Shown: positions 17,408 to 40,271 of the stretch, piece after piece
Layout: the number at the start of each line of letters is the position of its first letter
Position numbering within the stretch: position 1 is the first letter of the stretch
NCBI GenBank assembly: GCA_020348305.1
Contig: CP070746.1
Span: 5,798,489 to 5,852,707, forward strand
Source: Desulfobacterales bacterium
Lineage (GTDB): Bacteria; Desulfobacterota; Desulfobacteria; Desulfobacterales; JAHEIW01
Length of the DNA: 54,219 nucleotides
Direction of reading: 5' to 3'
Position numbers and translations under genes: made by a program
The notes under the pieces: generated by a model
Database searches by the model: none
What the model was told of the DNA's origin: nothing
What the model saw: only the letters and a program-made list of their open reading frames with translations

Positions 17408-17646
17408 TGCTTTAACTAATATTATAGAGAAATATTCTAAAAAAAATTACCGCACCGTCTTGATTACCTAAATTTAAATTTCAAAAAGCAGTATAAATTA
17501 AACGAAAGGTAAGGGACCATGATTTGGACAAGAAGAGTTGCTTAAATAATAGAAGCCAAACCGGGATGAAATTCTTTAAATCTTGCCGGAAAATTACATC
17601 CAATAATCCGGCTCGCAGAAAAACCAGCCTGATGATCCAGAATACT
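17408..17646. other. Spacer between kinase and polymerase genes with a possible small hydrophobic reading frame
   Basis: A minus-strand frame ends at 17481 and runs back into the kinase gene. Its part beyond the kinase stop encodes a hydrophobic, aromatic segment (VWLLLFKQLFLSKSWSL). The only ATG lies 83 bases inside the kinase gene and lacks a ribosome site. It may be a remnant of a further gene or a small membrane peptide. I do not call a CDS. Confidence 0.3.
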
Positions 17647-19851: not shown

Positions 19852-19898
19852 AGCTGAAACCTATTTAGAATATTCACACAGTCGAATCATCACTTGCG

Positions 19899-22148: not shown

Positions 22149-22951
22149 GATCCTAAATCCTCGATGGCATCTTCTACAATTTTGCTATCAATAATTTTGG
22201 CCTTGCGCATCAATCCGATGAGCAAGCACCGATCACACAAATTGTTTGTCCGCAACGGAATACCGCCGGAGTATTCGTAGATGAGACCAATCGCTTCTTT
22301 AGAAAATATTCCCCGGGAAGCGCCGGCACTTTTTAATCGAAATAGAACATAGCGTAAAGTGTCTTTACTATCTAAGGGATCCAGATTGAACATTATGCTG
22401 ATCCTTTCCTTCAGCGGTTGGAGTTCCGTAATATTTTTTAGCAACGGCGGTTGGCCGAGTAAAATCAGAGTAATCAGAAATTCATCATCATGCTGCATGT
22501 TGAGCAGCATTCTTAACTCATCCAAGGTGGCCCGATTCCCAATCACATGGGCTTCATCGACGGCCAGCACCGTGCTGACTCCTTGCTGGGCATTCTGAAA
22601 TAGTAATTTTTGGAGTCGATCGAGCAGCACCGTTTTAGAGCCATTCGTGTTTTCCAAATTATCACCTAATTTTATTAAAATGGCTTTGATGAGATCGGTC
22701 GGTTGTAAGGCGGGATTTGATATGGTCTTGAGCTGAAATAAATCTTTATTGAGATAGCATTTTAAGGCTTTGGTAATGGTGGTTTTTCCGCAGCCAACCT
22801 CACCCGTGAGCATGGCAACCCCTTTGTGGTACTCGATGGCATACAATAACCGGCGCAGGGCTTCCTCATGCTGAGGTGATCTGAAAAAAATCTCACGACT
22901 CGGTACATTGCCAAAAGGTGCTTTTGCAAGACCCCAATGCTCTAAATACAT
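22145..22951 (-). CDS. ExeA/GspA-like AAA ATPase of exopolysaccharide loci
   Basis: A 268-residue cytosolic AAA-type ATPase. It opens MYLEHWGLAKAPFGNVPS, the hallmark start of the ExeA family. Walker A is GEVGCGKTT at residues 50-58, Walker B is VLAVDEAHVI, and a sensor-type RI motif occurs at LKERISIMFNL. Similar genes accompany exosortase/PEP-CTERM exopolysaccharide operons, where their role is unproven but may be assembly of the export machinery. Here it lacks the C-terminal peptidoglycan-binding domain of true ExeA. GAGGG precedes the ATG. It overlaps the export lipoprotein gene by ATGA, implying coupled translation. Confidence 0.9.
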   Translation of the reverse strand: MYLEHWGLAKAPFGNVPSREIFFRSPQHEEALRRLLYAIEYHKGVAMLTGEVGCGKTTITKALKCYLNKDLFQLKTISNPALQPTDLIKAILIKLGDNLENTNGSKTVLLDRLQKLLFQNAQQGVSTVLAVDEAHVIGNRATLDELRMLLNMQHDDEFLITLILLGQPPLLKNITELQPLKERISIMFNLDPLDSKDTLRYVLFRLKSAGASRGIFSKEAIGLIYEYSGGIPLRTNNLCDRCLLIGLMRKAKIIDSKIVEDAIEDLGS

Positions 22952-23035
22952 AATAACACCCTCTTCCTATGCATGGATGAGGTTACTTTCTAATGCAAGC
23001 AAAATAATTTAGACATATTATTATAAACAAATATG

Positions 23036-24148
23036 TCAGGTTTTCGAAAGTTGCCGAATTTCATCATCCGTAACCGAATCAACAATATGCAAAAGCGGAT
23101 CTTCCGGTAAGGCAACAATTCTGTCTGTTAATACCTTCTGTTTCTGAGAGTCGTAAACGATCCGAACTTTCGGCCGCATGGGCTGGTCCGGATAGGTTTC
23201 AATTACCTTACCAATAGCCTCGGAGTTTAGTCGAACATAGCTATCCATCGGAAAAAGCGTAAAGGTGCTCAAAAGCGCTCTAAGGTGTTTCCGTTGAAAA
23301 CGATTTTTGCTGGTGTTTATGATTTTTGTTACAGCTGCGAAAGGCGTTAATTTTTCGCGTTGAGGCCTGGAATGGATCAAAGTTTCATAGACGTCCAATA
23401 GTCCAAGGATCTGTGCATACTCGTGAATCTCGTCGGCTGTTAAACCTCTGGGGTATCCTGTCCCGTCAATCCTTTCATAAACCTGGGCGGCACATTCGGT
23501 TAGGTACGCATATTCATGACCAAACGATTGTAAGATCTTATTGCTATAATTCGGACGTTGCCTAAAAATTTTGATTTCGTCTTTACTGAGCCTTTTTTGT
23601 TTGTAGATGATATGATCCGGAATTGCCGCCGTGCCAATATCATGGAGCAGGCCGGCGAGTCCGATTTCAATTTGCTGATCCAAACTGAAGCTAAGGTATT
23701 TCGTCAGCTTAATCCCATAAATGGCAACATTGACGCCATGATGGGAAACAAATTTATTACGGTCATCCGCATGCAAGGACATGATGAATAACGGATCCGG
23801 AGAAGGATTCACTTCGGCGATTTCGCGAATAATCTGAAGCCCTTTTTCAAGGGAAAATTTTTGGCGATTTCTGACTGCACCCAGTACCTGATTCAAATAA
23901 TCCAACGCTTCATGATAGAGAAACTTTCTGCTTTCATCAGGGGCTGATCGAAGGCTTGCTTTGCCGTTCTTTTCCAGGTCTGTGGCCAGCTCGACAAAAC
24001 TTAATTTTGATTTTTTCTTGACGCCTTGATGGCCTACTCGTTGAGGATCTACTTTAATATTTCTGAACTGCACCACGCCGAAAGCTCCTTTGATTCCCAT
24101 CTCTGGTATATCTTTTTTTTGAAGATTCCTTTTTATCCAAGGTTCCAT
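23036..24148 (-). CDS. HD-GYP-type protein with degenerate metal-binding residues
   Basis: A ~370-residue protein with an HD-GYP fold in its second half. The landmarks are FVSHHGVNVAIYG, GLLHDIGTAAIPDHII (the HD pair near residue 170), YERIDGTGYPRGL (GYP motif) and GLLDVYETL. Intact HD-GYP enzymes hydrolyse cyclic di-GMP using two or three metals. Here the His of the RxHP motif is replaced (FRQRPNYSNKIL), and the HHE before DGxGYP reads VYE, so three expected ligands are missing. The protein may bind rather than cleave c-di-GMP. The N-terminal ~120 residues are unassigned. Starts are uncertain: the ATG used here lies inside the 3' end of the upstream transferase gene, and an ATG at 24100 is an alternative. 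Its place in the operon suggests control of glycan export. Confidence 0.85.
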   Translation of the reverse strand: MEPWIKRNLQKKDIPEMGIKGAFGVVQFRNIKVDPQRVGHQGVKKKSKLSFVELATDLEKNGKASLRSAPDESRKFLYHEALDYLNQVLGAVRNRQKFSLEKGLQIIREIAEVNPSPDPLFIMSLHADDRNKFVSHHGVNVAIYGIKLTKYLSFSLDQQIEIGLAGLLHDIGTAAIPDHIIYKQKRLSKDEIKIFRQRPNYSNKILQSFGHEYAYLTECAAQVYERIDGTGYPRGLTADEIHEYAQILGLLDVYETLIHSRPQREKLTPFAAVTKIINTSKNRFQRKHLRALLSTFTLFPMDSYVRLNSEAIGKVIETYPDQPMRPKVRIVYDSQKQKVLTDRIVALPEDPLLHIVDSVTDDEIRQLSKT

Positions 24149-25373
24149 TCGCAAAACGACCGCGTCTTTCCAGTATGGTGATCAACACAACAATAATCGA
24201 TGCTTGGATGATTAACAACAGCGCATTACCAGAGCTTGCATTGCGAAGTACGACGGCACTGGTACCCAGACAAAAACACAGAAGATAAATAAACAACACG
24301 CTTTTCTTTTTTCCACCTAGTGCGTTTGCCAAACGATGATGCAGGTGGTCCCGGCCCACGTATTCGATCCATTGTTTGAAATTCAGCACTTTTCCGGTCA
24401 GAATCCGTTCAACGGTAATATGCACCATGTCGAAGATGAAGATCCAAAAAATCAGAATAGGAGATACCAGGGCCACGACCGGCTTACCTTCGGCCCAATC
24501 TCCATAAACCGCAATGCACGCCAACACAAAACCGATAACCATACTGCCGGCATCTCCCAGAAAAATCCCGGCACTCCCGTTAGGCCTGAAATTAAACGGC
24601 AAAAATCCAAGACAACTCCCCATCATAGCCACCGCAACCCATCCTAAAAAGGGCTGGTTCGTCTGAAAGGCCACCACACCCAAGAAAAACGAAACCAGTG
24701 CGCCCAAGCCCGCAGCCAAACCATCCATACCATCAAAAAAGTTCATGGCATTTGTGATGCCGATGATCCAAACCACGGTCAAAACGGCATTGCCCATCTG
24801 AGCGATGATTCCTAAATTATCCGGAATAACCCGCAATATGATTCCGCTGCAGATGACCAGCAGCGTAGATAGGACTTGGGTAATGAGTTTTATGCCTGCT
24901 GAAATCTCTTTGATGTCATCGATCACGCCAACACCAAATAATATTATCGCTGCAATCAGTATCGCGCCAAGCTCCATGGAAAAAATACCGTTGATTAAAA
25001 GTGCAACCAAAAAGCCGATGAATACAGCCGCCCCACCAAGCAGCGGGGTGGCATCCTGATGAAGTTTTCTTCCATGCGGACGATCAAGTATGCCGAATTT
25101 GCGGGCTACCCAGGAAAAAAAAGGGCTTAGGCAAAATGACAATGCTAAAGAAACCGACATTACATGTGCCCATCGCCATCCGGAGGTTGCAAAAAATTTA
25201 CACGTCACAGGCATCAAAAGACCACAGGTCAAGAGAACCATCAGTAGATATAGGGACCAGTTCAGACCGAGAAGCCCTGAGGGTTTTTCTGCCCTTTCAT
25301 CCAAATGGTCGATAACAATCGAAATCGGCGTTTTCTCTGACACCAAATTGTTTGCCACTGTTGTGTGTTTCAT
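24054..25373 (-). CDS. MraY/WecA-family undecaprenyl-phosphate sugar-1-phosphate transferase
   Basis: A 439-residue multi-pass membrane protein with ~11 helices. Family motifs are present: GRKLHQDATPLLGGAAVF (cytosolic loop 1), GVIDDIKEISAGIK (DD motif), AMNFFDGMDGLAAGLGALV (catalytic NxxNxxDGxDGL type), FLGDAGSM and RDHLHHRLANAL (His loop of polyprenyl-phosphate GlcNAc transferases). The family attaches a sugar-1-phosphate to undecaprenyl phosphate and starts glycan assembly. It is the first gene of the exopolysaccharide operon read leftward. The ~35-residue hydrophilic tail (KKESSKKRYTRDGNQ) overlaps the start of the HD-GYP gene, an unusually long overlap. An extra hydrophobic N-terminal helix (LNWSLYLLMVLLTCGLLM) precedes the core. 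Confidence 0.92.
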   Translation of the reverse strand: MKHTTVANNLVSEKTPISIVIDHLDERAEKPSGLLGLNWSLYLLMVLLTCGLLMPVTCKFFATSGWRWAHVMSVSLALSFCLSPFFSWVARKFGILDRPHGRKLHQDATPLLGGAAVFIGFLVALLINGIFSMELGAILIAAIILFGVGVIDDIKEISAGIKLITQVLSTLLVICSGIILRVIPDNLGIIAQMGNAVLTVVWIIGITNAMNFFDGMDGLAAGLGALVSFFLGVVAFQTNQPFLGWVAVAMMGSCLGFLPFNFRPNGSAGIFLGDAGSMVIGFVLACIAVYGDWAEGKPVVALVSPILIFWIFIFDMVHITVERILTGKVLNFKQWIEYVGRDHLHHRLANALGGKKKSVLFIYLLCFCLGTSAVVLRNASSGNALLLIIQASIIVVLITILERRGRFANGTLDKKESSKKRYTRDGNQRSFRRGAVQKY

Positions 25374-25746
25374 TCCAAAAATTTAATCCGCAGATTTTTC
25401 CGATTGCACCGATAACTGATTCTTGCTAACTTTTGGATTTTGTACAATATTACTTAAAAGAAGATATAGAAAACCATGTGTAAATGATGCACATATTATG
25501 CCATCAGCCAGGAAGGCATTGAAGCGTATAACTAATTAATATTATTAAAAATAGGCATGAATCTAATATAGGTAGGAATTTTTGCTGCTGTCAACAATGT
25601 GGCAATATTAGTCTCAATTGTCATTTTTATGGCAGTTGTCGAATCGTTCAAGGACAAAAATGTTTTGATTTAGAATACTTAGTGCTCTTATTCGTAATTG
25701 CAGTAACGTATTAACGGAAATATTTTTTCACCACAGAGACACTATT
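25374..25746. other. AT-rich intergenic region upstream of the exopolysaccharide operon
   Basis: It separates the DegT aminotransferase stop from the MraY-like start, both on the minus strand, so it should hold the promoter for the operon. I looked for GG-N10-GC (sigma-54) and TTGACA/TATAAT pairs and saw none that convinced. No gene or strong hairpin is seen. Confidence 0.4.
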
Positions 25747-26805
25747 TTAAGCGCCTACAATGGCTTCGATGACCCGCTGAACTTCCTGATCTGAAAGTGA
25801 TGGATAAATTGGAATGGAAAGTGATGTCCGCCAGGTGTTATCGGTAATTGGGTACCCCGTAAGCTTTAAGCAGTGATGAAGCGGCAAATAGATAGGCCGA
25901 GCACATCCAATGCCTTTTTGCACGAGCTTAGTGATCAATAGTTGGATATCGGTGTTTAAGCCGACGACAAATCGGTAATAGATGTGAGCGGGATCATCGG
26001 CAGGGAGCCTTAGGCTCAAGGATTGAAATGCCCTAAAATACTTTTGGGCGATGGTCCTGCGTCGCTGAATAAAGGCGTCCAGCTTGGCGAATTGCGCCAA
26101 TCCGACGGCCGCCTGGATGTCCGTCATCTTATAATTAAAGCGGGTTTCATACCGATCCTTTTGATCATATGCTTTGAGGTCCTTTATTCGGTTTGCCAGC
26201 TTTTTGGAGTTGCAGATGACCATTCCGCCTTCCCCACAGGTTATCACCTTGGTGGCATAAAATGAAAAGATGCACGCATCACCAAAGGCGCCCAGCGGTT
26301 TGTTACCGAAGTTGCCTCCCACCGATTGGGCACAGTCTTCGATAATGGGCACATTCAGCGCCAACAGCTTATCCAGATCGGCTGTCAAGCCGAACAAATG
26401 GGGAACGATAATCGCTCTGGTGCGGCGGGTCAGACGTTTTTTGACATCACCTGGATCGATATTATACGTTGCGGGATCTATTTCGGCGAATATCGGTGCA
26501 GCCTCCACATAGCGAACGGCATTGAGCAACGCCGCGCACACATAACTGGGCATGATCACCTCATGATTGGATCCGATCCCCATAGCCAACAGCGTCAGAT
26601 GCAACGCTGCCGTTCCCGAGCTTGTGGCAACCGCATATTTGGTATCCATTTTGCGGGCAAACGCGTCTTCGAATTCCTTTACCACTTGCCCTTCTGCAAT
26701 ATGGCCGGATTCAATAACAGCCGCAGCCGCTGTGATCTCCTCCGGACCCAAGGTCGGCCTCGAGTGTGGAATGAATTTTGGGTTCAATCTGTTATTAATA
26801 TCCAC
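25747..26805 (-). CDS. DegT/DnrJ/EryC1/StrS-family PLP sugar aminotransferase
   Basis: A 352-residue cytosolic aminotransferase. Evidence is the opening IPHSRPTLGPEEITAAAAVI, the cofactor-binding GTAALHLTLLA, PVFAEIDP-like text (APIFAEIDPATYNID), the Asp-binding IIEDCAQSVGG, and FSFYATKVITCGEGGMV, where the Lys forms the PLP Schiff base. It also has FNYKMTDIQAAVGLAQ. The family converts keto-sugar nucleotides to amino-sugar nucleotides for surface glycans. It lies next to a PIG-L deacetylase (66 bases apart) and a WbqC gene on the same strand, suggesting a small set for making a modified amino sugar. Substrate stereochemistry cannot be read from sequence. Confidence 0.92.
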   Translation of the reverse strand: MDINNRLNPKFIPHSRPTLGPEEITAAAAVIESGHIAEGQVVKEFEDAFARKMDTKYAVATSSGTAALHLTLLAMGIGSNHEVIMPSYVCAALLNAVRYVEAAPIFAEIDPATYNIDPGDVKKRLTRRTRAIIVPHLFGLTADLDKLLALNVPIIEDCAQSVGGNFGNKPLGAFGDACIFSFYATKVITCGEGGMVICNSKKLANRIKDLKAYDQKDRYETRFNYKMTDIQAAVGLAQFAKLDAFIQRRRTIAQKYFRAFQSLSLRLPADDPAHIYYRFVVGLNTDIQLLITKLVQKGIGCARPIYLPLHHCLKLTGYPITDNTWRTSLSIPIYPSLSDQEVQRVIEAIVGA

Positions 26806-26871
26806 AATGATTTTTCAGCTTGAATCGCAATGATCACTTGTTTTAGATGTCTAAATAGGCGCCTACTCAGA

Positions 26872-27495
26872 TTAGATGTTGATGAAAAGTCGAAGCGAAT
26901 GGAAAGCCTCTGCAAATTTGACCCTGCCCTGAATGCCTCGAAAGTTTGCACTTGACCGGGCAACTTCGACGATAGAGAGATCCTCAATGTTGGTTTTCAT
27001 CACCTGGGATCGATGGGCTTTGAGTGCTTGTATTTTCTTATCGAGGCTGTCGGCAATATCCACAAACACATGGGGCTTAAAATTTTGGGTAGTGGGCACC
27101 TCGAAGAACAACACATTTCGAATATAGCGCGTTGCGGACATAATGGCCTGGGCAAGGTGCCGGTGGTCCTGGTGGGTGTCGTCCGGAAAGTTGCAGAAAA
27201 TAAAATCCGGCTTTACATCTTTGATGACATCTTCGATTTTGCCGATCAGCTCTTTATCCACAATAAGATGGGTATCTTCATAGCCACCCCAGTAGATATC
27301 CGCGGCGCCCATAATTTCTTTGGAATCCATTTGCTCTGCCACTCGGGTAGCGGTTTGGGCACCAAATCCACCTTGCGTCATAACCAGCAAGAATAAACGG
27401 TGACCTTTCTGGGTGTATTTGATCAACGTACCGCCGCAGCCGACCTCAATGTCATCCGGATGGGCACCGATTGCCAGAATGTTGACTTTATCCAT
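26872..27495 (-). CDS. PIG-L/LmbE-family N-deacetylase
   Basis: A 207-residue zinc-dependent deacetylase of the GlcNAc-PI de-N-acetylase fold. The zinc and catalytic motif AIGAHPDDIEVGCGG lies at the N-terminus, with the second zinc motif region at FPDDTHQDHRHLAQA. The family removes N-acetyl groups from GlcNAc-containing substrates such as sugar nucleotides or lipid-linked sugars. The start MDKVNILAIG is chosen because GAGGGG lies 7 bases upstream. A longer frame adds eleven residues without support. Between an aminotransferase and WbqC, it probably exposes an amino group on a glycan precursor. Confidence 0.9.
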   Translation of the reverse strand: MDKVNILAIGAHPDDIEVGCGGTLIKYTQKGHRLFLLVMTQGGFGAQTATRVAEQMDSKEIMGAADIYWGGYEDTHLIVDKELIGKIEDVIKDVKPDFIFCNFPDDTHQDHRHLAQAIMSATRYIRNVLFFEVPTTQNFKPHVFVDIADSLDKKIQALKAHRSQVMKTNIEDLSIVEVARSSANFRGIQGRVKFAEAFHSLRLFINI

Positions 27496-27714
27496 ATAAT
27501 TCCCCTCAATCAATTTCGACGTCATCAAAAATGCTGCTTTTTATTCACCTTACAGATTGGAAAAAGTTAACCATTTCCGGAGTAATGAATTATTGCAGTA
27601 CTGGCGTACCGGAAACAATGGAGGAGTTACTACGAAATTCAAAAAGTACTCGACATGAAATGCATTCTCTCCGTCCGCAATACTAAGTCGTGGCTGGAAG
27701 CCACTCCCACATAT

Positions 27715-28401
27715 TCATGGATTCGCTTCCCAAATTTTATCCATGCTCTGCGGCCCACAGTTGAAGAGCAAATCCACAATCGACAGATGGGACTGAAACT
27801 GATTGAAGCGCTGCGGATAAACCGGGTGCTTGAATTCTTGAATGACCACCTTAATCCCGTGCTCTTCAAATCGTCCCAGATCCATATATTTTATACCATC
27901 CTGCCCGGACAGATACGTATCCGCCCCGACCGCTTTGCAAATATCCACTAACCGATCGGAAGGATCATCGCTTAGCATTAAACTTGAGGCCAGCATCGTC
28001 GGTTTGCTGTGAAGATTTAGAAACTCTCTGAGACGTTCAATTAAAAATACATTTAAGTCGGATAATAGCACCCAGTTTTCAGAAAAAAAATCTTTAAAAT
28101 GGGCTATATAATCGTTAAAATATGATGCCTTGCTGTAATTCGTGGTGAATGCCTGAAGATGCTTCTTTTTCCACTTCACCACATTATTGATTTCAACTTC
28201 ATTGATTTTTTGGGGAAAGCGGTACTGAACGGGAACGGTTATCCATTGCCAGCTTTGAGCGGTTTTAATTCGGTTGCGATTTTGCCATTCGTTTTTCTTA
28301 TACTGAACGTTATCCAAATAACAAAAAACGTCTGCTTTGCTCATCTTATCGAAATAGCCGAGCCATGGAAGATACTGAGGTTGATGAATTGCGACAATCA
28401 A
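27715..28401 (-). CDS. WbqC-family protein (probable TTG start)
   Basis: A ~228-residue protein with the WbqC hallmark IVAIHQPQYLPWLGYFDKM at its N-terminus, then NVQYKKNEWQNRNRIKT, WITVPVQ and QDGIKYMDLGRFEEHGIKV. WbqC proteins occur in O-antigen and exopolysaccharide clusters. They are thought to belong to N-acyl or amidating steps on sugars, but the reaction is not established. No ATG precedes the conserved motif. I place the start at TTG because family members begin with M(K)IAIHQPxYLPW and GGAG lies about 10 bases upstream. The frame stays open 46 codons further upstream, but those codons run through an inverted-repeat element and encode Pro/Arg-rich text unlike the family. Confidence 0.85.
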   Translation of the reverse strand: MIVAIHQPQYLPWLGYFDKMSKADVFCYLDNVQYKKNEWQNRNRIKTAQSWQWITVPVQYRFPQKINEVEINNVVKWKKKHLQAFTTNYSKASYFNDYIAHFKDFFSENWVLLSDLNVFLIERLREFLNLHSKPTMLASSLMLSDDPSDRLVDICKAVGADTYLSGQDGIKYMDLGRFEEHGIKVVIQEFKHPVYPQRFNQFQSHLSIVDLLFNCGPQSMDKIWEANP

Positions 28402-28445
28402 TCTGGGTCTGCTCCAAGATCTCTTAGAAGTCGGGCGGGCCTCTG

Positions 28446-28610
28446 CAGGCTGTCCAACAACCCTTGCAATTCCACGAATAGCCCTGCCCCTTGACGAGGG
28501 AGGGTTTGGGTGGGGGTGATAAAATTGGTGAGAAATCAAGATCTTATCTGACCACCCTCCCCTTAATCCCCTCCCATCAAGGGAGGGAAAACGAGTTGTT
28601 GGACAGCCTG
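28446..28610. repeat. MITE-like 165-bp element with 16-bp terminal inverted repeats
   Basis: CAGGCTGTCCAACAAC (28446-28461) is exactly complementary to GTTGTTGGACAGCCTG (28595-28610). Inside, CCCCTTGACGAGGGAGGG and CCCTCCCATCAAGGG are nearly complementary, and GGGTGGGGGTG pairs with CACCCTCCCC, so the whole element can fold into a long imperfect hairpin. It carries no transposase frame. It sits 45 bases upstream of the WbqC start and may have separated that gene from an older promoter. Confidence 0.75.
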
Positions 28611-32599: not shown

Positions 32600-34450
32600 T
32601 TATTTGCTGCTATTTGAAAATATAGGCTCTTTGTCCGAAATAGATTGCTGATAAGTTGCTATCGACTGGTAGTAATCATTGGCGTTTAAAAGAGATTGAT
32701 GGGTCCCGCCGTCAACGAGTCGATTTCCATTTATCAAAAGAATTCTATCCATCTGCCGGATAGTCGAGAGACGGTGTGTGGCGACAAATAATGTTTTTTG
32801 TCGAACCGCATCGGGAATCGCCTCAAAGATTGACTTTTCCATTTGGCTGTCCAAAGCGGCGGTGGGCTCATCCAAGATCAGTATGTCCGGATCCTTGATC
32901 AAAGCCCGGGCGATCGCAATCCGTTGTTTTTGCCCTTCAGATAGCTTAACGCCCTTTTCCCCGATATTCGTCTCATAGCCCTTCGGCAGGGTTTTGATAA
33001 CGTCATGCATACCGGCAACGCGCGCAGCTTTTTCGACCATGTTCGTATCCGCATCAGGTATTCCGTAGCGGAGATTCTCGATGATGGTACCGTCCAGAAG
33101 CCGCGGTTGTTGGGAAACATATCCGATGCGCTGCCGCAATGAACTTACATCGCAATCTGAAGCCGGCAGACCATCAAAATAAATCTCTCCTGCCGTGGGG
33201 CGGTAAAAGCGTAAGATTATACTTATCAGGGTTGTCTTGCCTACACCGCTGCCCCCAACAATTGCAACCTTTTCACCGGGTTTGATATGAAGACTAACAT
33301 CTTTGAGCACAGGTTCGCAGCCGTTGTAGGCAAAAGAAACATCCTTGAATTCAATTTCACCAATCAACCTTTCAACCTTACAACCGGAACCCATGTTTTC
33401 TTCGGGAATGATGTCAAAAAGCGCCGACACACGCTCCAGGGCTGCCAGGGCCTTCTGAAGTTGCAGGTTTGCCGAAGCCAAAAATTGTGCCGGACCAAAC
33501 ACATAGGCCAAATAGGCTTGATAAGCCAGTAGGGATCCCAACGTCCACTGACCTTTAATCACCCAAAAAGCGCCGACTGCTAAAACGACGGCACGGGCCA
33601 TTCCGGGCACGGAATTGATCGCTAAATTAGCCAATGAGACCACGCTGGTTTGTTCCAACGAGACTTGAAAAACCTTCTTCAACGCATTCATCAATCCTTT
33701 TTGGGTTCGATCCTCCGTAGCGTAAGCTTTGATCAACGGTGCTTCAGAAAGTGTCTCCTGGAAACGGCTTGAGATCTTCGCTTTTTGCTCCATGCTCTGA
33801 TGGCTTAAGATGTGAATTTTGCCGGAAAAAAAGCGAATACAGTATCCAATACCCGGCAAGAGGATTAAAACAGTAATCGATAGCCGCCACTCCAAATAAA
33901 ACAATAGGCCGATGCCGCCAGCAAAGCGTATGATATTGCTGATGACATGTATCATTGTGCAGGAAAAAAACCAGCGGATTCCCTCGACATCTGTTGTAAG
34001 ACGTGACATCAAGTAACCGGTCTGATTGTCGTCGAAAAATGACTTGGGAAAACGCAGCACACGGGCAATCAGATCCTGATGAATGTCAAGGGTGATGCGC
34101 CGCTCAAAGCGGGCAAAATAAAAGTCCTCTAAAACGCGCAAAAGTTTTTCGGCTGCTAAAAAGCCGATCAGCAGGACAATAGCGCTGGCCAGAAGTTCTA
34201 GTTGGCGTCCCAAGATGACCTCGTCGATCAGATAGCGGGTGATCAAAGGCGGCGGAAAACCGCATAGGGAAGCCAAAATAATAAGCCAAAAACCGACCAG
34301 TCCCTTGCGCCAGTGGCGCTGGTAGTAAGGTTGGAGTTTTTTCAGATTGCCCCTGGTACTGCCATAGCCGCCGGTACCCACGATACGGTCTGCGGGCAGT
34401 TTGCGCGCAAGGCCTCGTTTTAAATATGTAAACCAGCTATTTATCACCAT
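32600..34450 (-). CDS. ABC exporter (fused permease and ATPase), last gene of the RiPP cassette
   Basis: A 616-residue half-transporter. The N-terminal ~350 residues carry six membrane helices of the ABC_membrane type. The ATPase follows: Walker A GGSGVGKTT, Q-loop YVSQQPRLLDG, signature LSEGQKQRIAIARAL, Walker B ILILDEPTAALDS and H-loop ATHRLS. No C39 peptidase domain precedes the membrane domain, so it cannot cleave leaders itself. That fits the separate S26-type peptidase three genes upstream. The ATG follows the nucleotidyltransferase stop directly (TAGATG), so translation is coupled. Family members export lipids, drugs or peptides. Context points to the mature cassette peptide as cargo, which is inference. 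Confidence 0.9.
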   Translation of the reverse strand: MVINSWFTYLKRGLARKLPADRIVGTGGYGSTRGNLKKLQPYYQRHWRKGLVGFWLIILASLCGFPPPLITRYLIDEVILGRQLELLASAIVLLIGFLAAEKLLRVLEDFYFARFERRITLDIHQDLIARVLRFPKSFFDDNQTGYLMSRLTTDVEGIRWFFSCTMIHVISNIIRFAGGIGLLFYLEWRLSITVLILLPGIGYCIRFFSGKIHILSHQSMEQKAKISSRFQETLSEAPLIKAYATEDRTQKGLMNALKKVFQVSLEQTSVVSLANLAINSVPGMARAVVLAVGAFWVIKGQWTLGSLLAYQAYLAYVFGPAQFLASANLQLQKALAALERVSALFDIIPEENMGSGCKVERLIGEIEFKDVSFAYNGCEPVLKDVSLHIKPGEKVAIVGGSGVGKTTLISIILRFYRPTAGEIYFDGLPASDCDVSSLRQRIGYVSQQPRLLDGTIIENLRYGIPDADTNMVEKAARVAGMHDVIKTLPKGYETNIGEKGVKLSEGQKQRIAIARALIKDPDILILDEPTAALDSQMEKSIFEAIPDAVRQKTLFVATHRLSTIRQMDRILLINGNRLVDGGTHQSLLNANDYYQSIATYQQSISDKEPIFSNSSK

Positions 34451-35722
34451 CTATACCTGTTGTCCGGATGCACGAATCCGTTTCATGACAAGTTCCACAA
34501 ACCATCTACGCCAGCGGCGGACGTAGGAGAGGGGAAGCAGCCAATTGCGCGATGGCGGGTAGCACATGCGCACCATCTGCGGATGCGGAAAAAGAAGACG
34601 AAACAAAGAGCTCGCCATCGCCGATACTCCCCCAGGTCGTTTCAGGTAGCGCCGCAGCAAAACGCCTGCCCAATGCGACCTGCTTGAGTGGGACCACGTC
34701 ATTCGTTCGTCCGCTGTGGGTCGGGGCCAGCTGTTGAAGTTTCTAAATCCATCTGGCAGCCGCAGCCCGGTCCACACCAGAGCCATTTTCAGACAGTGTT
34801 CCACAGCCAGGCGGGCCCTCCAGGTAACGCTCCTATCTGGCAACACCTCCCAATCTTCGGGTATACGAAGGCCGCGGGCGAGCAAGGCAATGTCGTAAAT
34901 CCAGACAAGGCGAATATCTCGCCGATGAATCAGGGCTAAGTGAATGGCCGCATGAATGAGGGCATCCACGGGGTGCATCGTCTCAAAAGCCAGGTCAGAT
35001 TTCTCAACCGTGCTGGCTCGCCGGAAAAGGTCCTCCAACCTACCCCCACCACAGTCTTTGAAAAAAGGGTGCAGCTCCCAATGCACCCAGTGGAGATCTA
35101 CAGGGAGGTTGTCTTTCGGGTGCTTTTTGTGAACGTATTCCTCCTCCCGAAAAAAATCTCTGGTGACCTCGAACCTCTTGCCCAGGCAACCGTAACCCAG
35201 ATCTTCGAGGATTTTTCGGGCCTTCCTAGTCTGCTTCGGAAGCACCAGCAGATCCAAGTCACTGCCGGGCCTCAATGCAGGATCGGGATAAACAGAAAAG
35301 CCCAGAGCAGGGCCCCTCAACACCAAGAATCGAACCCCTTCCGTTTTAAACGCATCCAGAATTTCTCCGAGTTGCCTCTCCAGACGCAGAGAGCGAACAC
35401 GGCTTTCATGAAACGTCCTCCTTAACTGGCGGTTAACTTCTCCCGGTGGAAGGCATTCCTGCGGCAAGGAACCGATGCGCCAATAAAGCAGCGGGGCGAT
35501 CCAATGGGGCTTTAGCAGAGCAAAGAAATCATGCCATTGATCAGCAGTTGCCGCCGGAGCTATAGGAATCTCATTGCTTAGCAGTGACCCAATATAGGTT
35601 AGGATATTGGATGGGAGTTTGAAAAGCGCATTCCTCGGCTCACCGCAAAGCTTGAAATCGGGATGATTGCCGTACCACAGCTCTTTCAAGGATGAGGTTT
35701 TCAAGGAGATCTGGTCATTCAT
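34451..35722 (-). CDS. PF14907-type nucleotidyltransferase family protein in RiPP cassette
   Basis: A 423-residue protein with the minimal nucleotidyltransferase signature: VLRGPALGFSVYP followed by RPGSDLDLLVLPKQTRKA, where SDLDLLV holds the metal-binding Asp pair. It then has a third carboxylate region (PVDLHWVHWEL) and a helical C-terminal half. This is the layout of the family encoded in lasso-peptide clusters such as PadeN beside an HPr-kinase-like enzyme. In such clusters it is linked to modification of the phosphorylated peptide, though the chemistry is not fully settled. The start MNDQISLK is chosen because its ATG overlaps the peptidase stop (ATGA). A longer frame would add 18 residues inside the upstream gene. 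Its partner here would be the ScmC-like HprK homologue two genes upstream. Confidence 0.82.
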   Translation of the reverse strand: MNDQISLKTSSLKELWYGNHPDFKLCGEPRNALFKLPSNILTYIGSLLSNEIPIAPAATADQWHDFFALLKPHWIAPLLYWRIGSLPQECLPPGEVNRQLRRTFHESRVRSLRLERQLGEILDAFKTEGVRFLVLRGPALGFSVYPDPALRPGSDLDLLVLPKQTRKARKILEDLGYGCLGKRFEVTRDFFREEEYVHKKHPKDNLPVDLHWVHWELHPFFKDCGGGRLEDLFRRASTVEKSDLAFETMHPVDALIHAAIHLALIHRRDIRLVWIYDIALLARGLRIPEDWEVLPDRSVTWRARLAVEHCLKMALVWTGLRLPDGFRNFNSWPRPTADERMTWSHSSRSHWAGVLLRRYLKRPGGVSAMASSLFRLLFPHPQMVRMCYPPSRNWLLPLSYVRRWRRWFVELVMKRIRASGQQV

Positions 35723-36423
35723 GAGACACTCATTTTTTTCTGTGTGACAACGGTCGACTGATTCCGATCTAGCCACACTTTGGACGGATTGTCCGGCAGA
35801 TCCGCCTCATCCACAAACAGCCGAAAAGGAAACTGAATATTCCATTGACATCGGCGGCCATCGTATCGACCCACGACTCTCCTGCCTACCAGCAATTGAA
35901 GCTTAACCTGTCCGGCGATTTTAAAAATAGCGACACGGGGGCTGAAGTGCAAAGGTAACAGGCCCGATACCAAGCCCCGGCAACCGGCACCGCGATAAAG
36001 GGGATGTAACACAGGTCTAACTGCACGAACCAGGACACGTCGCCATCGATTTTTACGGGCCAATAGCCGCCCGACCCAACCTCCGGCGATTTTGCGATAC
36101 TGCCGGCCGCGCCATGCCGCCACTACCTGGCCAAGGATGTGGCCTGGGTCCAGAAGCCATGGATCGCAGGCGTTGCTGTTTTCACCACGCGTGCGAACGC
36201 CCCGTGGCGTTACGCAAACGACACGATGCACCACAGGCGTTTTTTGCCCGGGCGGTAAGCAAAATATTACGTCTCCGACCTGTATGCGCCTCTCGATATA
36301 GGGCCTGACCTGCAGTAGGTCCTGCTCCCCGAGAATTGGTTTCATGCTGGACCCAGCGAGCCCGCAGCAGAAAACACCCTTGGTTTTCTCATCTATTAGG
36401 TTAAAAAATGGTCCTATGTCCAT
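35719..36423 (-). CDS. S26-type (signal-peptidase-like) serine peptidase of RiPP cassette
   Basis: A 234-residue protein whose first ~110 residues match the S24/S26 catalytic core. AGSSMKPIL holds the nucleophile Ser, GDVIFCLPPG is the box before the general base, and PVVHRVVCVTP puts His where bacterial LepB has Lys. Ser/His usage is that of the archaeal/eukaryotic (S26B) branch. RTRGENSNACDPWLLDPGHI then matches the GDN-like box. No N-terminal membrane anchor is seen, unlike LepB. The remaining ~120 residues are Arg-rich and unassigned. In a cassette lacking a C39 or S9 peptidase, this is the best candidate for leader removal from the Cys/Gly-rich precursor. It starts 47 bases after the ScmC-like gene and overlaps the next gene by 4. 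Confidence 0.78.
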   Translation of the reverse strand: MDIGPFFNLIDEKTKGVFCCGLAGSSMKPILGEQDLLQVRPYIERRIQVGDVIFCLPPGQKTPVVHRVVCVTPRGVRTRGENSNACDPWLLDPGHILGQVVAAWRGRQYRKIAGGWVGRLLARKNRWRRVLVRAVRPVLHPLYRGAGCRGLVSGLLPLHFSPRVAIFKIAGQVKLQLLVGRRVVGRYDGRRCQWNIQFPFRLFVDEADLPDNPSKVWLDRNQSTVVTQKKMSVS

Positions 36424-36470
36424 ATCATTGGGCTTTGTATACGCGAGTCATGAACCTCACTGCCCGATTT

Positions 36471-37448
36471 TCATTGATTCTTGCAGCAGCAAGCGATCGC
36501 TCGCTCGATCTCATGCCAGAAGCAGCCGTTGAGGCTTAACTTCAGACGATAGACGGGAACAGCTTCGACTAACGCGCAGACGTTATTGAATCGTTCCGTA
36601 CGGAGGACGCGGAGTTCATCTTTCCTCAGTCCATGGGACATTGCCAAATAAGCCTGTTCTGCCGACTCAGTGAGCAGACCGATTGTCTTTCCGGCACCCA
36701 TGCTTTCCACGCGGTCTATGTTCGCCTTGTTCAAGAAGAAGATACCACTCAGGGGTACAGCATATTGCACATCCCAGCTACCGCCTGAGCCGCCAGATAA
36801 AAAAGCACTCCAGGTGGGCCAGGGGTGGGCCCAGTATACCCCCTGCTCGTCACGTATAATCAGGGTTGCGTCATCACACAGTGAGCGCCACGGATATGGA
36901 AGTCGTCGACTTGCGGTTGTCTTACCCCCTCCTCCCGGACCAGCCAAAATCACGCCGTATCCGTTCTTTTCTGCCAGAGCACCGTGCAGGAGAAATCCAC
37001 CTCGCGGCTGAGCATCGGCGCCAATCACCAGCGAAAGTTGCATGAGCTGCAAGACAAACAGGTCACTGCTTGTGACAGGGCTTAAGAAACAGGACATGAC
37101 GCCTGTACGAGCCTGCCGTAAGGCAAAACATAGGGCTGTTAATGGCGCTTTGTCACAGGCATATGAAGGGTACGATTGGGGACTGCCGGACAGTATGTTT
37201 GGTAACCGGCAATGCCCAAGTGATTTTCCGTCGTGGCTGTCCACACGCACAATCAATCGACGATCGGAACGGCAGAGCACTCTGAGTTGCATCGCCTGCC
37301 TGAGACCCGAGACGATGGCGGCTGCCTGCTCATCTGCGGCTGCAAAGCTCCACGTGGTCCCATCTGCCAGACCCAGACCAATGTCCGCTTCCGAACCGGA
37401 GCAAATTTCACTGCTCATTGGCATCCCCAGCTGCTGGACAACATTCAC
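36471..37448 (-). CDS. scmC: ScmC-like SynChlorMet cassette protein (HPr-kinase-related P-loop)
   Basis: A 325-residue protein with an HprK-like core. A His strand (GGFLLHGALAEKN) leads into the P-loop GVILAGPGGGGKTTASRRLP (GPGGGGKT at ~170-177), then SLCDDATLI, which matches the paired Asp of HprK. The later segment PLSGIFFLNK is the strand after the cap. HprK-type enzymes phosphorylate Ser/Thr, and relatives in RiPP clusters phosphorylate the peptide. The GTG start is chosen because GGAGG lies 8 bases upstream and the start falls 4 bases after the precursor stop. A frame open to 37700 exists but its extra 84 codons overlap the precursor gene and read as low-complexity Pro/Gly text. Assignment to ScmC is from cassette context plus fold. 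It was not verified against a profile. Confidence 0.8.
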   Translation of the reverse strand: MNVVQQLGMPMSSEICSGSEADIGLGLADGTTWSFAAADEQAAAIVSGLRQAMQLRVLCRSDRRLIVRVDSHDGKSLGHCRLPNILSGSPQSYPSYACDKAPLTALCFALRQARTGVMSCFLSPVTSSDLFVLQLMQLSLVIGADAQPRGGFLLHGALAEKNGYGVILAGPGGGGKTTASRRLPYPWRSLCDDATLIIRDEQGVYWAHPWPTWSAFLSGGSGGSWDVQYAVPLSGIFFLNKANIDRVESMGAGKTIGLLTESAEQAYLAMSHGLRKDELRVLRTERFNNVCALVEAVPVYRLKLSLNGCFWHEIERAIACCCKNQ

Positions 37449-37452
37449 CCGA

Positions 37453-37743
37453 TCATCCTCCGGGACCGGACGGACCGTTATTACATTCATTAGCGGCGCC
37501 ACTTCCGGTATCGCACTCCCGCCCGATGGCGCCGACCCCGGTCCTGCACCTTGGTCCACTGGCGCTTGTCCCTGTTCGGCAATTAGCATGTGCGGCACTG
37601 CCATCATTACACGACTGACCAGCCGCTGTGGCTGTTTGGCCGAGAGGGATCGCAACCGGGGCCTCATAGATCCGCTTTTCATTGGCCAACAAGGCGCCAT
37701 GTTCGTTAAATATTTTTGTGCGCGTGTCTTTCTGAATCGTCAT
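37453..37743 (-). CDS. Candidate RiPP precursor: 96-residue Cys/Gly-rich peptide with five CxxG units
   Basis: The peptide begins MTIQKDTRTKIFNEHG. A charged leader (~1-42, including NEKRIYEAPV) is followed by a core rich in Gly, Ala, Ser, Thr and Asn. Cys residues occur at 45, 55, 66, 77 and 87, spaced 10-11, each opening a unit: CNDG, CRTG, CRTG, CDTG and CNNG. It ends PSGPGG. Gene signals are strong. GGAGG lies 7 bases before the ATG, the ATG overlaps the radical SAM stop (TGATG), and the next gene starts 4 bases after its stop with its own GGAGG. Leader plus repeating core next to a PqqD homologue and two SPASM radical SAM enzymes is the classic RiPP layout. The modification is not known; thioether or C-C crosslinks at Cys or within CxxG units are possible. 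Confidence 0.82.
   Translation of the reverse strand: MTIQKDTRTKIFNEHGALLANEKRIYEAPVAIPLGQTATAAGQSCNDGSAAHANCRTGTSASGPRCRTGVGAIGRECDTGSGAANECNNGPSGPGG
37457..37461 (-). promoter_or_regulatory. Ribosome binding site GGAGG deciding the GTG start of the ScmC-like gene
   Basis: GGAGG lies 8 bases before GTG and spans the last two Gly codons of the precursor. It supports starting the HprK-related gene after the precursor rather than at the upstream ATGs at 37490 or 37700. Confidence 0.7.
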
Positions 37744-38870
37744 CAAACAACCTCCACAAGGTCATTCCACGCTAGTTGTGATACGTTGCTTTTCAAATTC
37801 TCCAAACGTGTCTTCGGAAACAGGCCGGCCTCCTGTGCCTGCTCACAGAACCAGAAGGGTGCCCAGATGTTTCTGCTCCGGTAATAGTTCTGGGCAATAC
37901 AGCTCCCCAGGCAACGACCTTTCATGACACATCCGGCACAGATGCCCTCAAAACGATGGGGAAGTCCCTCGCGAAGTTCCCGCAGCACCGGTGTGTGGTT
38001 CCAGACCTGCGCCAGATGATCCGTGGCGGCGTGGCCGAAGACAAGATCCGACACGGTCTCACCTATTCCACACAGGGCGTAGGATCCATCAGCCAGAACG
38101 CCGAGTATATCCAGAATTCCGCAAACCCCGCAGCCGTTCCCATGGGTGCCGAACATGTTGCCTAAAGGACGGAATGCCGGTGGGTGACCGTAGTAAAGCC
38201 GTAACGGTGTCGTATCTGCAAGAGCAGTCTCCGCCCATCTTCCTAAATCAACAAGCTCTTCAATGGTCAGTGCCTCTCCGCTCTCGTGCAGCCGTTGTCC
38301 TCTAGCCGTTGGCTGGACAAGGTTAAACTTGACCGATCCGGCACCCAGTGACTCAGCCAGACGGACGAGAGCCTCCATCTGATCTTTGTTATGCCGCATG
38401 ATCGTCATGATGAGTTGAGGATTGAGTCCGGTCTGCACCAGATTACGGATACCCCCAAGCGCGGCGTCGAAGCACCCCGGTACACCTCGAACCCACTCGT
38501 GGGTTTCCGCATCCGTACCGTCCAGGCTGACGGAGACAAAGGGATTTTTGCAGGCAGCCATTTTCGCGGTTAGCTCAGGCGTACACAGCACGCCATTGGT
38601 CTCAACCGTGAGACGGAGGTCTTCTGTCCGAATGAACTCCAACATCTCCTGAATTTGCGGATGCAGAAGCGGCTCGCCCCCCGTCAATTTGACCCCGCTC
38701 AGTCCGAGCGGTTTTGCCTGTTGAATGATCGATCGAAAAAGTTCGAGGTCCAGCGCAGGATGCGATCGCGCCTCGGTCCGGTAGCTGGGCGCAATCCAGC
38801 AGTGGCGACACCGCAGGTTGCAGTCGGCGGATAGGTAGAAATAGATTTGTTTTAACGGACCACTCAACAC
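37743..38870 (-). CDS. scmF: Radical SAM/SPASM protein, ScmF-like
   Basis: A ~375-residue radical SAM enzyme. From the GTG start, the SAM/[4Fe-4S] motif is CNLRCRHC at 17-24, preceded by IYFYLSAD. LTGGEPLLHP supplies the GGEP motif and VSVSLDGTD a later core strand. A SPASM region with auxiliary-cluster Cys residues lies at GNGCGVCGILDIL, ALCGIG, GICAGCVMKGRCLGSCIAQN and FWFCEQA. SPASM enzymes make C-C, C-S or C-O crosslinks in peptides. The GTG is preferred because AGAGGA lies ~10 bases upstream and it falls at the ScmE stop. A TTG 57 bases earlier is possible but lacks a ribosome site. The E/F labels follow gene order and N-terminal style and should be checked against TIGR04250/TIGR04251. 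Confidence 0.85.
   Translation of the reverse strand: MLSGPLKQIYFYLSADCNLRCRHCWIAPSYRTEARSHPALDLELFRSIIQQAKPLGLSGVKLTGGEPLLHPQIQEMLEFIRTEDLRLTVETNGVLCTPELTAKMAACKNPFVSVSLDGTDAETHEWVRGVPGCFDAALGGIRNLVQTGLNPQLIMTIMRHNKDQMEALVRLAESLGAGSVKFNLVQPTARGQRLHESGEALTIEELVDLGRWAETALADTTPLRLYYGHPPAFRPLGNMFGTHGNGCGVCGILDILGVLADGSYALCGIGETVSDLVFGHAATDHLAQVWNHTPVLRELREGLPHRFEGICAGCVMKGRCLGSCIAQNYYRSRNIWAPFWFCEQAQEAGLFPKTRLENLKSNVSQLAWNDLVEVV
37751..37755 (-). promoter_or_regulatory. Ribosome binding site GGAGG of the candidate precursor gene
   Basis: GGAGG lies 7 bases before the ATG of the small Cys/Gly-rich gene and inside the 3' end of the radical SAM gene. It decides the start of the precursor and shows that the small frame is translated in its own right. 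Confidence 0.8.
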
Positions 38871-39982
38871 GCCAACAGTTCCTCTTCCGGCAATCTTCCT
38901 CCCTCCTCCAGGAATCGTCTCAGACAAGCGTCGGGACTTGGATGATTCTCTTCACCGAGGAGGGTATATGCAAGCGCCGGACAGTTGCCGGTGCAATAGG
39001 GGATGTAATCGCAGCCCTGGCAAAATTCAAAATCACTCAAGGCAATATCCCTGCGCTCCCTGATACGCCTGAGTTCAGCATGGTTCTGCCAGACTTCCCG
39101 CAGATCGTCCCGGTTAATCCGCCCCAGCTCGATATGGCTCATTTGCTGGCAGGGAACCATGACGCCATCGGCTCGCACAGCTAGCGTGTTCAATGGCCCC
39201 CCGCACCCTGTCAGATACCCCCGTCCCGGAATGTTGGGTCGCCCTTCCCTGCGGGCTTCCTCCATCTCCATCCAGATCTTACCTTCGGCCAGCGGGCCCG
39301 CCGTTGCGCTGATGCGCCCATTGTATTTTTTTCTGAGTCTCAGAAGGGTCTTCATCGCAAGTGCACGCTCTTCCATCGTGAGCTGCACCTGCTCGGAATG
39401 CTGCCGGCAGAGACCCATAAACGAAGCGGCGTTGGTCGAAAAACTGTGTAGACCGACCTCTTCCAAAAGCAGCCTGGCAACTCCTTCAAGATCCTTTACA
39501 TTTCTCCGATGGATCGTGACCCGAACTGAAACCGAAACACCGTGTTTACTGAGAGACATGATTCCGTCCATCGTGCGTTCAAAATTTCCATTGCCCCGGC
39601 AGGCGTCGTGGGTGGCCGGCATTGAGCCATCGATAGAGACCTGAACTCCGTCACAGCGGCCGGTTTCAGCAACAAAGGCTGCCATTTCATCGGTGATCAA
39701 GGTTCCATTACTCAAGATGGTGAATCGCATCCGGTTGCGGACGATCCCATGGATGAGTTGCCTCAAATCTTGCCGGCAAATGGGCTCTCCACCCTCAAGT
39801 ATTACCTGCATGACGGCGCAGTCACTTAACTCTTCGAAAAACCGGAGCCATTCTTCGGTGGCAAGATCTTGATCGACATCTCCGGCACTACCAAAATGAC
39901 TGCAATACGCACACCGCAGATTACAGCGGCTGGTGATCGCCAGATCCACCGATCTTGGAGTACGGATGACTTTCATGCTCAC
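38864..39982 (-). CDS. scmE: Radical SAM/SPASM protein, ScmE-like
   Basis: A 372-residue radical SAM enzyme. The SAM-cluster motif CNLRCAYC sits at 20-27 after RTPRSVDLAITSR. VILEGGEPICRQDL is the GGEP motif and VQVSIDGSM a core strand. The SPASM region carries Cys at LTGCGGPLNTLAV, VPCQQMSH, FCQGCDYIPYCTGNCPA and DACLRR, enough for two auxiliary [4Fe-4S] clusters. The N-terminus is too short for a separate RRE domain, so it should depend on the PqqD-like protein for leader recognition. GTG is taken as start: GGAAGGA lies just upstream, one base after the scmD stop. An ATG two codons later is equivalent. It shares only fold-level similarity with the ScmF-like enzyme, so the pair probably performs different steps. 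Confidence 0.85.
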   Translation of the reverse strand: MSMKVIRTPRSVDLAITSRCNLRCAYCSHFGSAGDVDQDLATEEWLRFFEELSDCAVMQVILEGGEPICRQDLRQLIHGIVRNRMRFTILSNGTLITDEMAAFVAETGRCDGVQVSIDGSMPATHDACRGNGNFERTMDGIMSLSKHGVSVSVRVTIHRRNVKDLEGVARLLLEEVGLHSFSTNAASFMGLCRQHSEQVQLTMEERALAMKTLLRLRKKYNGRISATAGPLAEGKIWMEMEEARREGRPNIPGRGYLTGCGGPLNTLAVRADGVMVPCQQMSHIELGRINRDDLREVWQNHAELRRIRERRDIALSDFEFCQGCDYIPYCTGNCPALAYTLLGEENHPSPDACLRRFLEEGGRLPEEELLAC

Positions 39983-39983
39983 T

Positions 39984-40271
39984 TCAATCCTTCCGAATCT
40001 CGTATCCGACTAAACCTTGTTCACTCAGGTTCAGAATGAAGTCGTTTAAATGTTGCTCCGCCTCTTTAGGGACGTCTTCGCAGTTCGCTTGAAGCGTGTT
40101 TAAGATGTCTTCAACGGTGCGGTTCCCGTCCAGACATTTCCATACGAACACGCCGGTTGGATTGAGCCCGAAGGCATTGCCCGTATCAGGATCGAAGAGA
40201 ACGGCCCAGTCATCGAACTCTTCCCTCAGCACCACCAAAGGATTGGCGATGGGCATATCGTTTTCCGGCAT
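39984..40271 (-). CDS. scmD: PqqD-family RiPP recognition protein, ScmD-like
   Basis: A 95-residue PqqD/RRE protein. Typical strands and helices are LREEFDDWAVLFDPDTG, AFGLNPTGVFVWKCLDG (the N-x-x-G-x-x-x-W/L-x-x-L-D-G hallmark), RTVEDILNTLQANCEDV and a long C-terminal helix. PqqD proteins bind the leader peptide and deliver it to the radical SAM enzymes. It is the first gene of the cassette. The start MPENDMPI is chosen because AAGGAG lies 9 bases upstream. A longer frame adds 22 residues without support. Stop and next start are one base apart, so translation of the whole cassette appears coupled from here. Confidence 0.88.
   Translation of the reverse strand: MPENDMPIANPLVVLREEFDDWAVLFDPDTGNAFGLNPTGVFVWKCLDGNRTVEDILNTLQANCEDVPKEAEQHLNDFILNLSEQGLVGYEIRKD

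Follow-up and report, generated by a model that had tools for sequence, protein, structure and literature searches.

The window analysed here, a stretch of 54,219 nucleotides from a Desulfobacterales bacterium within which coordinates are given, carries on its minus strand a tight series of eight genes in the order ScmD, ScmE, ScmF, ScmA, ScmC, S26-type peptidase, nucleotidyltransferase (NT) and ABC exporter. This operon is the SynChlorMet (SCM) cassette of the NCBIfam models TIGR04248–TIGR04252, because ScmD, ScmE, ScmF and ScmC all exceed the cut-offs of their models. The balance of the evidence tilts slightly towards a pathway in which a ribosomally synthesised and post-translationally modified peptide (RiPP) built by radical SAM enzymes would also be phosphorylated by ScmC, capped by the NT, cleaved by the S26-type peptidase and exported. 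A first-pass annotation of the segment 34451–37448, which comprises the genes of ScmC, the peptidase and the NT, had claimed an HprK-like kinase and a PF14907 nucleotidyltransferase in a radical SAM setting, and this gene content was confirmed by the profile matches given below.

At the head of the operon, ScmD (39984–40271, in a frame open to 40337, with an ATG at 40271 after AGGAG) is a PqqD-like protein of the leader-binding, RiPP recognition element (RRE) type, which matches TIGR04248 with 123.9 bits (cut-off 100) as well as PF05402, and whose runner-up NCBIfam models are lasso PqqD chaperones. Two radical SAM/SPASM peptide maturases follow, namely ScmE (38864–39982; TIGR04250, 635.7 bits, cut-off 400) and ScmF (37743–38870, open reading frame to 38927, likely GTG start at 38870; TIGR04251, 615.2 bits, cut-off 400). 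Both the CX3CX2C motif of ScmE (C20, C24 and C27) and its seven SPASM cysteines (C260, C278, C321, C324, C330, C334 and C353) proved to be invariant in 19 homologues. The precursor ScmA (37453–37743; 96 residues) consists of a leader ending in YEAPVAIPLGQTATAAG, five CxxG units and the end GPSGPGG; it reaches 23.2 bits with TIGR04252, under the cut-off of 35, and E 2e-18 with the family rebuilt from 50 cassette precursors. The HprK-like P-loop kinase ScmC (36471–37448; 325 residues; TIGR04249, 184.1 bits, cut-off 125) begins with a GTG only 5 bases past the ScmA stop, with a Shine–Dalgarno-like GGAGG upstream. The gene of the S26-type peptidase (35719–36423; 234 residues), a candidate leader peptidase, separates those of ScmC and the NT, which are hence non-adjacent. 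Its stop overlaps the start of the NT (34451–35722, open reading frame to 35776, ATG at 35722; PF14907, 159.4 bits, cut-off 31.2) in an ATGA, and the NT stop abuts, as TAGATG, the start of the MsbA-type ABC exporter (32600–34450; PF00664 and PF00005), whose Pfam listing contains no C39 peptidase domain. These data establish the genes and the operon, and within the 6.97 Mb genome of the window the single PF14907 gene and the single ScmC gene are those of the operon.

In NCBIfam, ScmC is labelled as a conserved protein, with no function name, and a scan of that collection yielded no SCM-named model matching the S26 peptidase, the PF14907 enzyme or the exporter. Literature searches for the SynChlorMet name, for its TIGR accessions or for ScmE together with ScmF returned nothing, and a search for radical SAM, HprK and precursor peptide did not recover the cassette. 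The gene set is, in short, already catalogued, and no functional account of it was found in the literature searched.

The kinase and the nucleotidyltransferase

The match of ScmC to TIGR04249 covers profile positions 100–291 of 292, and a full catalytic tetrad is present (H155, K176, D192 and D193). When the PDB was searched with the ScmC profile, HprK structures came at the top (1jb1, E 1.1e-6). An AlphaFold2 (AF2) model, with a predicted local distance difference test score (pLDDT) above 90 across the kinase core, was matched by Foldseek to HprK and PEPCK (E 1e-5), the comparison with PEPCK giving a Z of 11.7 and a root-mean-square deviation (rmsd) of 5.3 over 235 residues. HprK and PEPCK are the two known branches of this fold.

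Among 41 ScmC homologues from cassette loci, the His before the P-loop and the P-loop Lys are present in all 41, and the two residues of the Asp-Asp pair in 40 and 41, respectively; in most of these proteins the pair is followed by a private HPxPTWS motif. Column by column, the tetrad aligns with that of eight true HprK proteins and with that of ten lasso-cluster kinases, two of which have Glu-Asp instead of Asp-Asp. ScmC gives no match to PF07475, the IRGLGI-type HprK signature is absent from the alignment, and no ordinary PF07475 HprK gene was found in the genome of the window at E 1e-20. In the tree, 40 ScmC rows stand on one side of a 99/99 branch, and the ten lasso-cluster kinases and the eight HprK proteins fall outside. 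Since it forms a single clade apart from both groups, ScmC is a predicted HprK-like kinase of its own subfamily, and not a PadeK. An assignment to HprK-related kinase A (TIGR04352), a family that is rare in the phylum, was rejected, as ScmC reaches only 20.7 of the 200 bits required. As a side observation, the open frames of ScmC in two other loci are considerably longer than that of the window (465–492 residues in L129 6255–7649 and L130 3717–5192), and an extra domain or a fusion is possible there.

A rival reading takes ScmC for a P-loop protein that is inactive or has a function other than that of a kinase, such as ATP-driven chaperoning of the precursor, and this would agree with the absence of any matching Pfam kinase model, with the replacement of the IRGLGI-type signature by HPxPTWS and with the fact that PEPCK structures rank as high as any by VIA-align. 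However, the His, Lys, Asp and Asp that lasso kinases require for catalysis (PMC9266682) are kept in 40–41 of the 41 homologues, and such a role is considered unlikely. ScmC is probably an active kinase.

As for the NT, the DxD metal-binding motif (D144/D146) and R140 are invariant in 26 of 26 homologues. No PDB entry matched a profile of the aligned NTs at E 0.1, and a fold comparison was used instead: the AF2 model resembles MenT1, ANT(2'')-Ia and LnuA, with a Z of 14.9 and an rmsd of 3.2 over 184 residues for MenT1. The conserved catalytic residues and the folds of both the kinase and the NT are thereby established. Comparators from lasso clusters had to be located via the NT, as a tblastn search of plasmids with ScmC gave no match at E 0.01. 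When seven lasso-cluster NTs were placed in a tree with those of SCM, the two sets interleaved, and well-supported branches forced at least three changes between the two settings; this is what repeated exchange between SCM and lasso clusters would give. The NT of the window groups with those of L034, L039 and L041, and the Paenibacillus and Priestia enzymes form a 100/100 pair that excludes it. The placement of the NT in a PadeN group, which the first-pass annotation had set as a test of its own reading, is thus not borne out in a narrow sense, the enzyme falling outside the Paenibacillus/Priestia paeninodin-type clade, yet in the wider PF14907 tree lasso and SCM enzymes are intermingled. PadeN as a name was not met in the available parts of PMC9266682 and PMC8498205, where the characterised enzyme is PsmN of pseudomycoidin. 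Whether the NT acts on a phosphopeptide is a matter on which the evidence is evenly poised.

Recurrence and genomic setting of the cassette

The SCM gene set recurs in Desulfobacterota, Chlorobiaceae, Aminicenantes, Omnitrophota, Brocadiaceae and methanogens. From a sample of 47 distinct ScmE loci, 22 had at least 6 kb on either side, and in these well-flanked loci ScmD was found 22 times, ScmF 21, ScmA 17 and ScmC 17, followed by the NT (12), the S26 peptidase (10) and the ABC protein (9), with ScmC and the NT together in 11. The genome-wide distribution was assessed in 395 genomes of the phylum by Fisher tests uncorrected for relatedness. ScmE was present in 21 of them and strong ScmC matches in 18, 16 of which were common to ScmE (p 2.5e-22), and PF14907, found in 88 genomes, occurred in 20 of the 21 with ScmE versus 68 of the 374 without (p 2.5e-13). 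The pairing of ScmC and the NT with the cassette is therefore beyond chance, and the recurrent association is established.

Several arrangements depart from that of the window. One genome (G031; L157 6031–11282, G031:C1) contains a split cassette, with ScmD–ScmE at 46 kb and the rest at 368–373 kb, about 320 kb apart; the distal part has a truncated ScmF fragment of 130 residues, ScmA, ScmC, S26, ABC and NT, so that kinase and NT remain together, and the split looks like a rearrangement within scmF. Six loci (L033, L035, L045, L046, L052 and L121) represent a second SCM subtype, in which ScmD–ScmE are split from ScmF/ScmC/ScmD copies, a clear S26 gene is mostly lacking, the cores are long and rich in Cys, and the leaders end in an AYA-type sequence in place of small-x-Gly. 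In L034, L036, L062 and L122 each cluster holds 2–6 ScmA-like precursors with differing cores, suggesting that a single maturation set serves several peptides. Lastly, L160 6640–9312 (G042:C222) combines an ScmC-like kinase, an ScmD-like RRE and an NT, and the 16 kb read there contain neither ScmE nor ScmF; this may be the module without radical SAM enzymes.

About 4 kb from the operon, on the same strand, lies an exopolysaccharide biosynthesis and export cluster (16016–28539) with Wzy, Wzz/BY-kinase, SLBB with FG-GAP repeats, ExeA-like ATPase, HD-GYP, WecA-like, DegT, PIG-L and WbqC genes. Relatives of these genes were detected in 9 of 46 SCM loci and in none of 48 radical SAM loci taken as controls (p 0.001), a comparison biased against the controls by queries drawn from the phylum of the window; for this reason the association is only a lead. 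In another family, L159 1–8078 shows a window-like block of WbqC, PIG-L, DegT and WecA-like genes directly adjoining the NT, S26, ScmC and ScmA, and the lasso clusters of L133, L143 and L147 are likewise found amid glycosyltransferases.

The precursor and the proposed pathway

The properties of ScmA were derived from 50 homologues, comprising 280 core units and 241 Cys intervals. CxxG occurs in 88% of the units and is continued by -x-x-Ala/Pro in 62%; the spacing between cysteines is 10–11 in 173 of the 241 intervals, and a core has 2–14 Cys. A [YW]xxP motif (as in YEPPRLFDL and YEKPVLIGL) is present in 44 of the 50 leaders. Asp and Glu amount to 0–11% at any unit position, and hence no conserved acidic acceptor was seen. 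The first-pass annotation had pointed to the Pro-Gly-Gly end of the precursor and to Ser/Thr within its units, and both features were indeed recovered.

The S26-type peptidase matches TIGR02228 (E 1e-8) and the nickel superoxide dismutase (NiSOD) protease model TIGR02754 (E 7e-7), in both cases under the cut-off. Its catalytic residues are kept in all homologues aligned: Ser (GxSM) in 25 of 25, His (HR) in 24 of 24 and Asp (TxGD/E...D) in 24 of 24. It has no transmembrane segment, its maximum 19-residue hydropathy being below 1.6. In S26-containing loci, 27 of 34 precursors have, before the first core Cys, a small-x-Gly tripeptide, which resembles the –3/–1 rule of signal peptidases; shuffling gives an expected 13.3, and none of 500 shuffles reached the observed number. 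In the same loci the AxA site of host signal peptidases showed no enrichment (17 versus 14.3 shuffled). The AYA-type tail is found mostly in precursors from loci without a clear S26 gene. Given the fit of the small-x-Gly site, the conserved Ser, His and Asp and the lack of a transmembrane segment, the S26 protein would be the leader peptidase.

The peptide substrates of ScmC and of the NT, the type of cross-link, the sequence of steps and the role of the peptidase are those that we infer in the following scheme. Briefly, ScmD would bind the YxxP leader of ScmA and present the precursor to ScmE and ScmF, which would modify the Cys-xx-Gly-xx-Ala/Pro repeats, most likely as Cys thioether cross-links. 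ScmC, with its HprK/PadeK tetrad, would phosphorylate Ser or Thr of the peptide, and the PF14907 NT would then attach a nucleotide or a hexose to the phosphate as a cap, in the manner of PsmN of pseudomycoidin. The S26-like peptidase would cut off the leader after the small-x-Gly site, and the ABC protein would export the product.

Several observations weigh against this pathway. A conserved phospho-acceptor was sought in the 50 ScmA homologues and none was found, Ser plus Thr peaking at 36–37% at unit positions +2, +4 and +5, with no position above 37% and none invariant, and therefore the site of the kinase cannot be read off. A C-terminal Ser of the lasso type occurs in only 3 of the 50 precursors, that of the window ending in PGG. 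ScmC is phylogenetically distinct from the lasso kinases, and thus its substrate may differ from theirs. The NT is missing from 10 and the S26 peptidase from 12 of the 22 well-flanked loci, so neither is obligatory, although some of these absences are due to contig ends or to split clusters. Finally, the presence of PF14907 in the 68 genomes that do not contain ScmE indicates that the family has other roles.

In an alternative reading, ScmC and the NT belong to the cassette functionally but have targets other than ScmA: ScmC would, for example, modify ScmD, one of the radical SAM enzymes or some carrier as a regulatory switch, and the NT would modify a glycan or glycan carrier. This would suit a precursor without conserved acceptor Ser/Thr, the exopolysaccharide genes that adjoin the operon of the window and some other SCM loci, and the PF14907 enzymes found next to exopolysaccharide genes without SCM in L163; moreover, the role of HPr kinase is that of a regulatory protein kinase. 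Against it stand the location of the ScmC gene, 5 bases after scmA and with its own Shine–Dalgarno-like sequence, its near confinement to genomes with ScmE (16 of 18), and the closest functional precedents, PadeK and PsmK, whose substrates are lasso peptides, either precursor or product (PMC9266682 and PMC8498205). A substrate other than ScmA is for these reasons judged rather improbable, and ScmA is taken, with moderate confidence, as the substrate of ScmC.

If the pathway is true, radical-SAM cross-linking and phosphorylation or phospho-glycosylation would meet on one RiPP. The first-pass annotation had called the combination unusual; this holds in that no report of such chemistry was found, but not in the sense of a peculiarity of the window, since the cassette is recurrent and catalogued. 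The SCM cassette of many anaerobic bacteria and methanogens, so far mere model names, would gain a testable pathway, the kinase/NT module of lasso clusters would prove to be portable between RiPP classes, and the PF14907 family would be opened to study beyond lasso peptides. More tentatively, SCM could be conceived as a RiPP class in which radical-SAM cross-linked CxxG repeats also receive a phosphate and a nucleotide or sugar-phosphate cap from a kinase/NT module exchanged with lasso clusters, and in which the capped phosphate might link the peptide to, or allow its co-export with, a surface polysaccharide, an idea that derives from the exopolysaccharide genes adjoining the operon and several of its relatives.

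Comparison with known systems

ScmC is like HPr kinase/phosphorylase (HprK, PF07475) in catalytic tetrad and fold, and unlike it in lacking a PF07475 match and the signature motif and in its separate 99/99 clade. With the maturases of sactipeptide and ranthipeptide systems (AlbA, PapB and QhpD-type), the SCM enzymes share the SPASM radical SAM architecture with seven auxiliary cysteines. Both ScmA and PapA, with its six Cys-x3-Asp units (PMC9413430), carry a single Cys in each repeat, but ScmA has no conserved Asp/Glu acceptor, and those systems do not include the added kinase/NT module.

Two of the lasso clusters used for comparison, both from plasmids, were read directly. That of Paenibacillus has the gene order NT, asparagine-synthetase-type cyclase, Ser-ending precursor, kinase, PqqD and B2, and its leader contains WQAPVVEAL; that of Priestia has a cyclase, an annotated paeninodin-family precursor ending in FES (leader WKKPELEVL), kinase, PqqD, B2 and ABC, with the NT elsewhere on the plasmid. 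The lasso kinase of Priestia aryabhattai pB2.3 (L139 3974–4909) appears in RefSeq as an "aldolase", an evident misnaming. According to PMC9266682 and PMC8498205, the C-terminal Ser is the residue that PadeK and PsmK phosphorylate in lasso pathways, and PsmN adds hexoses to the Ser phosphate in vivo.

It might be proposed from these precedents that the window encodes a strict lasso-type module, with a product that, like paeninodin or pseudomycoidin, would bear a capped phosphate at its C-terminus, and with a radical SAM step added, given that the type of RRE, the leader motif and the pair of enzymes are shared. This is most improbable: 3 of 50 ScmA precursors end in Ser and that of the window in PGG, ScmC lies outside the lasso kinases, and no B2 transglutaminase-type protease or asparagine-synthetase-type cyclase domain was detected by Pfam in the eight cassette proteins. 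Accordingly, modification of the peptide end, as suggested in the first-pass annotation, is not indicated. Its lasso parallel holds, with support from the similar leader motif and the interleaved NTs, but ScmC does not belong to the PadeK group. The SCM cassette and the paeninodin/pseudomycoidin clusters have in common the PqqD-type RRE, the [YW]xxP leader, an HprK-like kinase with the H-K-D-D tetrad, the PF14907 NT and the ABC exporter. In contrast, an S26 peptidase and a pair of SPASM radical SAM enzymes take the place of the B2 protease and the cyclase in SCM, which also differs in its Cys-rich repeat core without a conserved C-terminal Ser and in a kinase of a separate clade. The likeness of SCM to the phosphorylated lasso clusters is real but modular.

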